Positions 56,601-62,600 of a stretch of DNA of 64,000 bases are shown piece after piece (within the stretch, counting starts at the first letter, position 1; the number at the start of each line of letters is the position of its first letter). The notes under the pieces were generated by a model, which saw only the letters and a list, made by a program, of their open reading frames with translations, searched no databases and was not told the DNA's origin. A program made the position numbers and the translations under genes. This DNA is from Halichondria panicea (lineage: Eukaryota; Porifera; Demospongiae; Suberitida; Halichondriidae): positions 3,005,463 through 3,069,462 of the forward strand of contig NC_087382.1 of assembly GCF_963675165.1 (NCBI RefSeq), written 5' to 3'.

Positions 56601-59600
56601 CTTACAAAGGACAACCAAATATAATGTGCTCCTGTACTTGTAGCAGTATAATTATAAGCCCAACTTATTTGGCTGTCCTAGTAACTAACCGTAGCACTGC
56701 TAATTTTCGAGGGTCAAATATTTGGGCAGATTTTTCGCGGATTTCAACCAAGTTTGCTGCGAATTTTTCAACCTCAAAAATGCATGTTCAAGTCAAAAAA
56801 TTGCTATCCTCGAAAATAATAATTATACGTGAAATAATTATTATTAGTGAAGAATTAGACCCTTGAAAATTACCCGCTGTACGATATTATCGTGTATGTT
56901 GTGCTCACCTGACCGATGACGATACTGTAGGTGATACTGAGTGGAGTGACGAGGGACAGAGCCAGTGTGCCCATTAGGGGGGAGGTCAGGAACACGCCCC
57001 TGCAATCAATGACCTCGTTAGTCCACTTATATTAGATATGCATGATTGTGTGGAGCCAAGTTTTACAAGTGCTTGTTTTTACTGGGACAACATTTTCACA
57101 GGATCTATAATTTCTTGAAATTTAGAATATGCAAGACAGGGGGCGTGTCAGTACATGTAATACAAGATGCCCTGAGGGCATTGGGTACACCGTGGTAGAC
57201 AAACAACAGATAGGCTTGTAGGTATGAATATGGTAATGAATGTGAGGTCAGGCAGAGTGTTTAAAATAGGTGGTGGTGAGGTCAAGTAGGTTATAGTAAT
57301 ATAATACACCACAGCTTTATGACCCCAGACGGACTAGTAGGGTGACCAATGGCAACACTTCCAACACCCACACACACTCTTTGTACCCAGTAACTTGAGA
57401 TCTAATTTTATCCACCCAAACAATAACTTCAGAGGAGCTACGTGTGCGTATGCTGTCTATCTCATTTACATGGATTGCTCAAAGTCCATTAATAGCTTAC
57501 ACAGAGGCTATAAATGGCTATTGCATTTCTCGCACTAACAACAGTTAGGGATATGTACATGCAATGGCACACTACACACACAATCATCATGAGTTGGTTA
57601 CTGCTCACTTGCTGTTATATTACATATATGTTCAACCTAATACCCTCCCCCCTTCTGTTTAATCAATGGTTGGGGGACTCTATCAGTTGCGAATTTCACT
57701 GATCCAATTTAAACAATTTTAGGATTTTCTGAAAGCTTAGAAAAATACCTTTCAAACGATGTCATCAAATTTCATATTTGAGAAATAAAAATATTTTCTG
57801 ATTTGATCATACCATGGATTATATATAGCCCATGGTCCAAAGCTGAAAAATGAGAAATTTGGTCATGTTGCAAATTTTCGATTTAAGCATCCCATTTTAA
57901 AGAGCTCCTTTCAAGCTTTCATAAAATCATTGAAATTGGAACATTACAACACAAGTTATGGCCATTCAAAGACGCTACGTAATGTATGGCTGTAGTGTAC
58001 ATGTACATGTAGATCATTTTATAAGGGTCATAAAATAATTAGCTATGTACAATGTCATGTATAGATCATGTAGGTGTTTGGCTTACCATAACCACAGTAA
58101 CTCTGAGAGTACGGTACCCACAAAGCCATTCACCAGTAGTAGAGTCCATACATCAGCTGTGGGGGGTAGCTGGAAGACCTCCAGGCCAGTGTAATGCCAT
58201 ACCACCAGCAGGGGGAGGAGAAATATGCTGTCAAAGAGGCCGACAAAACCTAGTGTGTGTGTGTGTGGGGAGTCGTGTGTGTGTGTACGTGTGAGGAGGG
58301 GTACACAGTACACTATAGAGAATGTACTAAACTTACTAAATTCTAAACAGCTATAATTATGCTAGTGGCCTAAAAGACAGAGTAGGGAAATGCATGCAAC
58401 CAAGAGTAATCATCAGCTACTAGCTCCACCCACCAAAGAACATTGGTATGTCCAGTGAGTCATGATGAGTCACTGCTCTCCTGAGCAACACCAGGTACAC
58501 TGCATACCTGAGGAAATATAATATTAGGTAAAGGGTCAATAATACAAAAATTGAAATATTATCAAACAATTCTACACAACTTACAACACTGCTCCTCCCA
58601 GTGCATAGAGTGCTCCAGTGCTGAACTTTATCCCTCCTTCATTACCAGAGGGGGATAGGCTAACCAGAGCAGCCCCGCCCACACTGTGGGGGAGCAAAAT
58701 AGCTTACAATACCACAGCCCCACCTCTTTGTGTCAGCATGACCGCAGACCCACCCCTTTTTGTTAGCAAGAAAAACAAAGCTAGCTAGATATAGTGAGCG
58801 GAACATGTTTGCTACAAGCTCTCCCGCGGTGCTTATTTTCTGCAGCCTCTGGTGTCTAGTTTTGCCCTGTGTAGCAGTGCCTAGTCTAGTCTCAAACCAA
58901 GAGAAGTACAAAGCTGCCAAGCTACCTGACTACAAGGATGCTGAAGGGATAAATCCCCATCAATACTGCCTAGGACAAGTGAACCATTTTGTACATAGCT
59001 GGAAACTGAAGAACTATCGAAAAAGACAATTTCAAGTTGGACAAATACGAAGTGCTGGTACTGTGTTTCAATTTCTCCTGTTGCTATTGTTATATGGAGG
59101 GTTGTGTGTGGTCTGTAATGTTGGTGCAGTAGTTGGACTTGGAGTTGACTGTATGACAGCAAGCGAACAATTTGATCAGTTCGGAAGTGCTTTCTTTCCT
59201 GTCAAAAGAATAGTTTTGCTTTTTGTAATAACAAGCATACTATCACTACAGCTATGGACTATGAGAGCTTTCAATACTAGATCTAGTGGCAAAGCAACTA
59301 ACAGAAATTGTCAGAAAAAATGCCGTCAGAGAGCTGGAATATTGTCTTTTACTAACTGTTTTTGTATGCACGAATTGTTGTTGATAATGTGTGGAGATGT
59401 TGAGCTCAATCCTGGGCCTGCAAAAATAGAAAGATCTACTACAACAACTACAACAGGTCCTCTAGACACGGAAAAACCAGCACAGGAGTCTACTGCACCT
59501 CTAGCCAGACGAAGTGAGAATAATGCAATTGAAACAACTGCTGACAATATTCCTACTGTACCTGAGGATCGACCTGTATTTACTGGTCTAGAACCTTTGA

Positions 59601-62600
59601 TGGATAATTTACGCCTTGAAACAGGTCCAGTCGAAAACAAGACAGCACATAGAAAATTTGATCCTATAGCAACTTTGCAAGAGCCGAGGATAGACCCAGG
59701 CAATAAAGTTGTACCTAAGCCTTTCAATCAGCAGCACAATCTATCACAAAAAGTTCTTGAGGGTGATAGTGACAGCTTAGATCCAAGTAATTACACTGAA
59801 GAAAGTCCAGTCAACGGAGACACCTCACGTGACGAATTGGCAGCTGAAACTGTAGTTGAAAAACATTGGGAACGCATGAAAGAAATGTTCCCAGAAAAAA
59901 GTAAATTCAAAAGATCGAACCCTACGGAAGCATTCAACATTCTTCGCAATGCTAATGAAAATTTTAGGAAAGATAAACAAGATGACCCACCATGTATTCG
60001 ATGTGGCCAGGAAAAGCCAAAGCCAACTAAAGGGGGGATACTATCTCATATTTTTCCAGAGTCAATGCTAAAACTAGTCCGAAAAGTACATTGTGAAAAT
60101 GAGAGAAGATTCATAAATGACCTTTCTACATGTACACACACATATAGACACATGCAAGCCAGTGATTATGCATACTATCTTCAGTGTTCCGCGTGTGAAT
60201 GTACAATGATCCAGAATCTCATCTAAAAAATGTATATTTACTCCTGATCGCTAACAGAGAAGAAGTGAAAACATCGGTCGCTTATGAAAAAGTGGGCAAA
60301 ATAGTCACTGACAAAATGAGAGCAATAATCACTGAAATAATGAAAGCAAAAGTCACTGAAGAAGAAGTGAAAGCAATGGTCGCTAAAGTAACAAAAGCAA
60401 TAGTTGCTAATGAACAAATGAGAGCAACGATCGCTAAAGTAGTGAGAGCAATGGTCACCAGTGCAGAAGCGAGAGCAATGAACCCTAATAATGAAGAAGT
60501 GAGAGTAATAGCCGCTACATTTAATACAGAAGCCGTGACATCAATGGTCGCTACTGCAGCAGAGAGAGCAGCAATGGTTGCTGAAGAAGAAAAAGTAAAA
60601 GCAATAGTTGATAAAATAACGAGAGCACTAGGTACTGAAATAGTGAGAGTAATGGTCGGTAATCAAGAAATATTTGCTAAATTAACGAGAGCAATGGTCA
60701 CTGAAGTACAGAGTGCAATGGTCGCTGATGAAGTAAAGAAAGCAATAGTTGCTGAAGTACAGAGTGCAATGGTTGCTGAAGAAGTAAAGAAAGCAATAGT
60801 TGCTGAAGTACAGAGTGCAATGGTTGCTGAAGAAGAACAATTGACAGCAATGGTCACTAAAGAAGTGAGAGCAATAGTCGCTAATAAAGTGAGAGCAACA
60901 GACCCATCAACATCAATAAAGGAAAGGTGGCTACCTTACGCACTTGTGAACATCATGTACAGAGGAGTTTTAGTATGCGCTTCAATCGACAGAATTTTGG
61001 ATTTATACCAAGAAAAATTCATCAAATTATGGGAAAATGTTCTAGGATATGGTACTACTACAGAAGTTCGCCTCTACATACTGCCAAATCGTCCCTTCAT
61101 AACAAATAATATTCACTTCATGAATGTAATCGAGGTACTGCTAAGAAATCCCACACCCACTAAGCTATATACATGTACATGTAAGTCTAAGGATGCAGGG
61201 GACTTTTTGTATACAATTTTCGACTGCTCATTTAGTTTTACCTCTTTGCACGACAAGTAAAGGATATTTTGACCGGTACACAAGTGTAAACATAACAGAT
61301 GATGAAGTATATCTCAAAAGATGCCAATATAAAACTCATGTCACAGGTAACTGTGACTCCAGCAAATACTTTCCACCTGTTCTTCACGGTGTTTGTATGG
61401 ACAGTTTTAACGCATGGGTACAGAAACTGGCAAAGACTGATGATCCCTTAAAATCCACTAAGTTAAACCAATCATTGATACTGGCCGAAATGTATCCCGA
61501 AAAAGATCCATATCCAGAGTCAGAGGACCCTCGTCCTTCAATACAGGAACAGCAAACATCCAACGATTGTATGTACTATAGTCCTAATGGGGCAGCTACT
61601 AATGATGAAAGAGAATATACTAAAGAAAAGGTGATCAAAAATGAAGCTAACTTGATTAAAGGTGCAACTGAACTTTCTATTTTTGGCAAACTACAGGAAC
61701 TTCACTTAGAAGTGAAAAACCTAAAGAAACAGAAGGATGATCGCGAGCAACAGGAAAAGCTACAAAGTTTAATAGAGGAAAATAAAAACCTTAGGTTAAC
61801 AATTAAGTCCATAGCGAATGCGTACAATAATGCAGAACAACAAATTAAAGAAATAAAAGAAGATAAAGAAAAACAAATCAAAAAATTGACTTTGGAAAAA
61901 GAAAAGGCAGTTTTGCTCGGGGAGAAATTCGCCAAACAGGAAAAACAACTTTCACAAGATGTTTCGAAAAAAGAAGAAAGAATCGTACAATGTGAAGAGA
62001 TAGTCTTAAATCTCAAGAAGAGAATCGCCGAACTGGAACAACAACATCTAAAAGATGTTTCGGAAAAAGAAGAACTACGAATCTCAGGAAGAGAATCGCC
62101 GAACAGAATTGAATAGTAACCAAGTGACTATGAGATTACTATTGTTACTGTTATTGTTATTGTATTATTATGTATAGTACATGCATGCACGATTTACATA
62201 CATATGTATATATAGCTTTGTATTTCAAGAGCTTACCTAATAAGAGTGACAATGCATCTTGATATTGTGATCTTGTCTCCATCAGTGACTGATAAACAAG
62301 GGAGGGCAGCTAGTACCATCACAAACACCCCCGAGGTAGAGCTGAGAGTGTTGACTGAGGCCACACTAGTAGCATAGAGGGCCTTGGAATAGAGGTAGTT
62401 AGCAAGGAACCACTGCAGCCAGGGAGAGAGAGAGGGAGAGCTTTAATCTTGTGTGTAGCCATATACATACCAAGGGATTGTAGGTACAGGGGTTTTGTAA
62501 TATTTGCAATGGACAAGTAGAGTACACATTGACTTTAAAATATAGTAGCTCAAGTTCATCAAAACCCTGTAACCATGCGATATATGCACGGCTATTCTAC

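Follow-up and report, generated by a model that had tools for sequence, protein, structure and literature searches.

We analysed a window of 64,000 nucleotides (the whole stretch is called the window here) from the sponge Halichondria panicea, contig NC_087382.1, positions 3,005,463 to 3,069,462 of the forward strand, and describe a gene in it that carries a 2A, or StopGo, ribosome-skipping peptide. Our reading, to which we give a probability of about 0.7, is that this gene belongs to a small animal gene family, of which three loci were found in the genome, whose intronless open reading frame (ORF) would encode, in this order, a membrane head some 190-210 residues long, a 2A/StopGo peptide and a body, with skipping to yield head and body separately. 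The body consists of a linker and a C..C-SH..P-C..C zinc-type motif followed by a conserved second half and a coiled-coil tail. The copy in the window is probably broken. Its parts, in coordinates of the window, are the following.

58805-60226, plus strand: ORF 1, 473 residues from ATG, with head, 2A, linker and zinc-type motif; a frame change ends it
58823-58879, plus strand: N-terminal hydrophobic segment, a putative signal peptide or signal anchor, residues 7-25 (hydropathy)
59078-59263, plus strand: two hydrophobic spans, about residues 92-117 and 130-153 (hydropathy)
59369-59419, plus strand: 2A/StopGo peptide, HELLLIMCGDVELNPG with the predicted split before P, residues 189-205 (translation, genome-wide 2A pattern search)
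59417-59980, plus strand: Pro205, with which the second product would begin, and a linker of low complexity (translation)
59993-60196, plus strand: C..C - SHIFP - C..C putative zinc motif, residues 397-464 (alignment with the relatives L003 and L004)
60197-60222, plus strand: first frame change, from ORF 1 (CSACE) to ORF 2 (ESHLKNVY) (alignment to relatives, shuffles)
60199-61260, plus strand: ORF 2, 353 residues, with repeats and then a conserved region, ..NIMYRG..LYILPNRPF..FLYTIFDC
60260-60900, plus strand: Ala/Val-rich repeats in ORF 2, main period 51 nt (17 codons)
61193-62116, plus strand: ORF 3, 307 residues, continuation of the gene and C-terminal coiled coil
61214-61231, plus strand: second frame change, from ORF 2 (GDFLYTIFDC) to ORF 3 (QFSTAHLVLPL) (alignment to relatives; the exact base is not fixed)

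Results

Residues 189-205 of ORF 1 read HELLLIMCGDVELNPGP, the 2A motif that an earlier note, made from the letters of the window, had placed there. As a DNA pattern, GDVExNPGP has 91 exact sites in the 131-Mb genome (37 on the plus and 54 on the minus strand), against about 0.002 expected at random for the codon pattern and none for the reversed control. Two of these sites lie in relatives of the window gene, L003 (793 residues) and L004 (927 residues), both on contig C16 and about 9 kb apart, which are single ORFs from the first Met and share the layout of head, 2A, linker, zinc-type motif, conserved second half and tail, with the 2A at the same place. The note had looked to homologues for the retention of NPGP, and both keep it: the cores, GDVELNPGP in the window gene and L003 and GDVEINPGP in L004, all fit the StopGo core (D/G/C/N)(V/I)ExNPGP. 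Upstream, where a StopGo sequence with D at p12 has an L-rich or DLT-type stretch and G at p11, the three proteins read LLLIMCG, LLLLLSG and LLLLLCG (judged by eye). The L-rich sequence before CGDVELNPG/P resembles StopGo motifs 2 and 6 of PMC12846837, where a motif 6 sequence is described as active in vitro.

No block is better conserved than the 2A, either in the stretch comparable across all three proteins or between L003 and L004 over their whole length. When ORF 1 was aligned with L003 and L004, the 14 columns ending at the final Pro held 10 invariant ones, compared with 5 of 14 in the best 2A-free segment, and between L003 and L004 the 2A has 12 identities in 14, the next best segment being the N-terminal hydrophobic one (11/14). 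The heads of L003 and L004 are homologous, since none of 1000 hydropathy-keeping shuffles reached their score. Identities between the two amount to 55/169 in the head, 72/201 in the zinc core, 49/198 in the linker and 41/164 in the tail. Conservation of the heads is thus close to that of the core, which makes it probable that the head is a working product, kept for a function of its own and more than a signal.

In genome-wide searches the body of ORF 1 found L003 (E=6.2e-4), L003 found L004 (2.1e-37) and the window gene twice, at 4.2e-5 (a match read through four stops) and 0.001 (to the ORF 2 region), and L004 found the ORF 2 region of the window gene (5.7e-6). Such a search scores its best candidates only, and remoter members may be missed; a fourth match of the window body, on C13 (L005, E=1.64), was taken as chance. 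No relatives outside this genome were confirmed in viral_contigs (62 pattern stretches), genome_contigs (16) or phages, collections which are viral and prokaryotic and have little bearing on other animals. L003 and L004 are the family members worth studying. L003 itself has a run of ten A at 2623-2632, after which coiled-coil-like heptads carry on in another frame, by slippage, assembly error or decay; as it seems to lose its coiled-coil frame there, errors or decay in the family are not confined to the window copy.

The body keeps the C..C-HI.P-C..C motif announced by the note, at residues C397..C400, H415-I-F-P418 and C461..C464, and both Cys pairs, H415 and P418 are invariant across the window gene, L003 and L004, an arrangement that may bind zinc. 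In the head, an N-terminal hydrophobic segment precedes the 2A of ORF 1, and its CS..C pattern recurs in L003 and L004. The signal peptide and two spans proposed for ORF 1 have their counterparts in hydrophobic segments near residues 7-25, 92-117 and 130-153; all signal and membrane calls in this work are, however, those of simple hydropathy, made without a dedicated signal-peptide or membrane predictor. By the same measure, L004 has a hydrophobic stretch that runs into its 2A.

Comparison with the relatives also makes ORFs 1, 2 and 3 pieces of one gene, since they match consecutive parts of the relatives, with two changes of frame. Opposite the ORF 2 start ESHLKNVY the relatives read ECRLKNLY and EDKLRDVY, and the score of the ORF 2 segment after this first break was reached by 1 of 20000 shuffles against L003 and 125 of 20000 against L004. 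Across the second break they read QFDCFHCVLPF and QFDCFHLVAPL; the ORF 2 piece before it had its score reached by 3 of 5000 shuffles (L003) and 1 of 5000 (L004), and the ORF 3 piece after it by 38 of 5000 and 1 of 5000, respectively. The window copy therefore has no uninterrupted reading frame, and two claims of the note are not supported: that of one intact 3.3-kb coding region, and that of a single body holding the zinc motif, Ala/Val repeats and a coiled coil, as ORF 1 stops short of the repeats, which lie in ORF 2, and of the coiled coil, which lies in ORF 3. Nor are the repeats part of a family design, as had been supposed; they are a peculiarity of the window copy, L003 and L004 holding about 35 residues at the corresponding stretch. 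The general claim of a real and unusual 2A gene survives, although the note had missed the frame breaks of this copy.

None of the three ORFs contains an in-frame stop, so that the breaks are either young or errors of assembly, and the window copy is probably a young pseudogene, unless the assembly is wrong at the breaks. It probably no longer makes the full body, although its reading frame stays open through the head, the 2A and the zinc motif. Sequencing and assembly errors usually fall in long homopolymers. The possibility that both frame changes are such errors, in a gene that is intact, draws on the T4 run within the bounds of the second site, on the apparent loss of frame in L003 at its A10 run, and on the lack of stops together with just two frame changes per 3.3 kb; we hold it doubtful, given that the bounds of the first site include no run of at least three equal bases. 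Still less probable is a working gene whose frame changes are overcome by programmed recoding or by removal of a short intron. The ORFs of 473, 353 and 307 codons do stay open and there is a GTAAGT at about 61180, but the relatives have intronless coding sequence at both breaks, which the window gene matches in the next frame both times, and the first overlap has no canonical slippery site (by eye). Two concrete forms of this explanation were rejected: a 57-nt intron at that GTAAGT, joining ORFs 2 and 3, opens the frame (by hand), yet the stretch removed matches coding sequence of the relatives, and for a programmed -1 frameshift at the first site the overlap offers no canonical slippery heptamer.

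Judged by the libraries searched, the body seems undescribed: neither Pfam nor NCBIfam has a match to it that exceeds the curated cut-off, and PDB has none. Pfam returned no match for ORF 1 or ORF 2; for ORF 3 it gave Hrs_helical (E=0.0022) and DUF2229 (E=0.21), both under the cut-off, and for the ORF 1 body alone a chance-level line (E=0.12). NCBIfam and PHROGs, for which the queries were ORF 2 and the body of ORF 1 from the window gene only, gave a best E of 0.076. In PDB the core profile of L003 and L004 had no match, and the window body had one chance-level line (E=0.41). A Transpos_assoc line in L004 fell below the Pfam cut-off (E=5.4e-4, 20.5 against 27.7 bits, 38 of 74 profile residues) and was not seen in L003. 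No death/CARD, NACHT or LRR domain was matched by Pfam in the window gene, L003 or L004, and a death-like profile, described below, found no such domain within about 2.3 kb after the 2A at any of the three.

The window gene lies within an intron on the opposite strand.

58660-62236, minus strand: intron of an EamA-like transporter gene, 3577 bp, enclosing the whole feature

This intron has GT/AG ends on the minus strand (donor ATTAG/GTAAGC, acceptor TTAG/CCTATCC), and the nested 2A gene, on the plus strand and antisense to the transporter gene, takes up 93% of it. The antisense position in an SLC35F5-like intron described by the note is thereby confirmed as to strand, intron ends and an EamA-like host; the joined host exons match EamA at E=3e-5 and 24.7 bits, under the curated cut-off of 28.2, and SLC35F5 (SLC35F-like) is the name we presume for the host. 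Terminal inverted repeats were considered and rejected: 24-nt arms at 58770-58793 and 62203-62226, 79% complementary, flank the gene, similarly strong pairs occur nearby, and the nonamer ACAAAGCTA with its complement is absent from L003 plus L054 and from L004. Elsewhere in the window, at 63542-63976 on the minus strand, a tandem repeat encodes MYTGLYRTHREH units, with 144 codons open.

As the note had stated, neither a reverse transcriptase nor an endonuclease is seen, Pfam giving no match to either in ORFs 1-3 of the window gene, in L003 or in L004. This counts against the gene being a non-autonomous relic of a 2A-bearing retrotransposon, as do the three diverged loci with no second DNA copy of the window gene reported genome-wide and the lack of any A run of at least 10 in 58601-62400. 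The family is intronless, 2A reportedly occurs in APE-type elements of the non-LTR (long terminal repeat) class (Odon et al. 2013), and one 2A site of the genome (L055) is followed by PHD and endonuclease domains; we nevertheless regard such an origin as very improbable and rejected it.

Beyond the family, the 2A is a striking feature of this genome by its density. Dropping the leading G codon from the pattern leaves the count at 91, so that every DVExNPGP site has G before D, a preference of viral StopGo with D at p12 according to PMC12846837. DIExNPGP adds 25 further sites (control 0), bringing D[VI]ExNPGP to 116, and the 91 sites cluster, with 38 on C14, 11 on C2 and 9 on C5. Of the DVExNPGP sites, 61 of 91 were examined individually (those in fetched loci), and of the DIExNPGP sites 0 of 25. 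Downstream of 45 of these 61, within at most 3.5 kb, there is a death-like domain (antisense control 0), detected with a profile built from 11 domains of the same loci, which match by construction. Against PDB this profile reaches PIDD-type death domains (E=0.0017 and 0.0024) and, with E from 0.22 upwards, FADD. Single death-like sequences are mostly missed by the Pfam Death model, L053 passing its cut-off at 2.1e-15, and a NACHT domain lies downstream in L053 (6e-23) and also in L049 and L038. A splice-donor-like GT occurs at most 16 nt after the Pro codon at 51 of the 61 sites, against a mean of 4.4 in control stretches.

The 16 sites without a death-like match are the window gene, L003, L004, L007, L008, L010, L011, L013, L015, L034, L037, L055, L056, L057, L058 and L061, and at 12 of them the sequence covered after the 2A spans only 0.7-1.5 kb. 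A CARD identity of the post-2A domain in L010-like genes was considered and not established, the best Pfam match to CARD having E=0.16 and no CARD chain appearing among the PDB matches listed. In L055 the PHD and endonuclease-reverse-transcriptase domains exceed the cut-off and lie in a different frame from its 2A; at L055:259-921 (minus strand) the 2A, then a PHD finger and Exo_endo_phos_2, make up a non-LTR retrotransposon with 2A. At L037:4283-5131 no splice-donor-like GT follows the 2A; a stretch of low complexity comes next, then a coiled coil that resembles bZIP under the Pfam cut-off, so that L037 is another 2A gene without death-like domain. A 2A-headed NLR is found at L053:908-4501 on C15, with a 2A exon, two death domains, NACHT and further sequence, and two more sites with the same 2A DNA lie within 25 kb. 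L047 (minus strand) has three 2A sites in 4.3 kb, each followed by a death-like domain, and the sequence preceding them resembles fragments of EHD/dynamin-like GTPases (by eye).

Discussion

We propose that the ribosome would dock at the endoplasmic reticulum while the hydrophobic segments of the head emerge; with NPG in the P site, no bond to Pro would form, which would set the head free as a membrane protein. Translation by the same ribosome would go on and yield the body, a second protein that begins with Pro and is cytosolic or nuclear. In an unskipped fraction the body would stay fused to the membrane head, and the efficiency of the 2A would thus set the ratio of membrane-bound to free body. 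According to de Felipe et al. (2010, PMC2978324), the 2A reaction can be inhibited by sequences that sit in the translocon when skipping takes place, a finding that speaks against full skipping. The last span of the window head ends some 50 residues upstream of the split, so that it would by then have reached or entered the translocon, and partial, tunable skipping is plausible.

Other observations also weigh against our reading. The ORF 1 body as query reaches L004 at just E=0.10 genome-wide, the identity of the window body to its relatives is about 30%, and the similarity of the tail is weak, a two-sequence search giving a best E of 0.06-0.1 past the first 22 or so matched residues of ORF 3. 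Conservation among the three proteins was counted over the ORF 1 part only, without the second half of the protein. The window head is marginal against those of L003 and L004, its global score being reached by 27 and 25 of 1000 shuffles and its local score by 111 of 1000 (L003) and 48 of 1000 (L004) hydropathy-keeping shuffles. The second span after the N-terminal segment is under the hydropathy threshold in L004, so that a signal plus two spans is not seen in all three proteins by this measure, and charge gives no clear membrane topology.

Another reading takes head and 2A together as a dual-function signal sequence, by which the unskipped body would be secretory, the skipped body cytosolic and the released head without function. 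This is the behaviour demonstrated for the 26-residue 2A of sea urchin NLR proteins (Roulston et al. 2016, PMC4981915), in which the 2A doubles as a signal sequence, the skipped product being cytosolic and the unskipped one secretory, and 2A heads are also borne by the death/NACHT genes of the sponge genome. We find it unlikely here, because a bare signal needs neither the 190-210 residues of this head nor a conservation between L003 and L004 that is about that of the core. A head released as a conserved protein of its own, beside a separate body, remains our preferred reading.

As a tentative generalisation, StopGo may be a genome-wide device in this sponge, its 116 sites being mostly portable first exons, each encoding a membrane head, stopping shortly after NPGP and joined by splicing to receptor genes of the death-domain and NACHT kinds; the window family would be the same device in an intronless gene, the long head having become a conserved protein paired with a new type of zinc protein. 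If true, the products of many immune-type genes would be a membrane peptide and a free receptor, made in a fixed proportion. The data also suggest that immune genes with 2A heads are not limited to sea urchins. Cellular genes are described as rarely carrying StopGo (PMC12846837). In a genome with 116 sites for canonical 2A cores, a cellular family that would have kept its long membrane head, its intact 2A and its zinc-type body, so far without a name, across deep divergence offers a natural, non-viral case in which to ask what skipping is for, the purposes addressable being paired products or a partition between membrane-bound and free forms.

No paper describing 2A in sponge genes was found in the library searched; the eukaryotic 2A survey of Rao et al. 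(2025, Cell Rep. 44, 115822) or Odon et al. (2013) may list relatives. A paper on the NLRs of Dysidea avara (PMC12909245) has no occurrence of "2A peptide", "2A-like", "NPGP" or "ribosome skipping"; five sponge passages within the first 300,000 characters of a recoding review (PMC5009743) concern mitochondrial frameshifting, transcript insertions or tRNAs, and "2a-like" in PMC5890393 is part of a gene name.

The body recalls HNH-like proteins with a C..C ... H..P ... C..C arrangement, in which the Cys pairs have the same spacing around SH.[FI]P, although no Pfam, NCBIfam, PHROGs or PDB match backs that likeness. With 2A-bearing APE-type non-LTR retrotransposons the family shares the presence of a 2A in a cellular genome; it differs in having no endonuclease or reverse transcriptase, and only L055 among the 61 examined sites was recognised as such an element. 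The death/NACHT genes of the same genome (L053, L049, L038) have the same octapeptide, L-rich upstream sequence and hydrophobic head, but in them a splice-donor-like GT is usual after the 2A and a death-like domain lies downstream, and the window gene, L003 and L004 have neither. The note knew of no described family with this order of parts, which holds for the libraries searched, where no match exceeds cut-off; N-terminal heads of signal plus 2A are, however, known from the sea urchin NLR proteins (PMC4981915); animal genes with such heads have thus been described before, and the mechanism itself is no novelty. For the family, with a long head that is conserved and a zinc-type body that has no name, the libraries searched gave no match above cut-off. 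SpNLR2A agrees with the family in having a 2A near the N-terminus of a cellular animal gene together with a hydrophobic sequence that may serve targeting (in the family judged by hydropathy), and in both a partition between membrane or secretory pathway and cytosol is expected; it differs in its 26 residues against a family head of about 190-210, and the family body, in a single intronless ORF, is not that of an NLR (no death, NACHT or LRR match).

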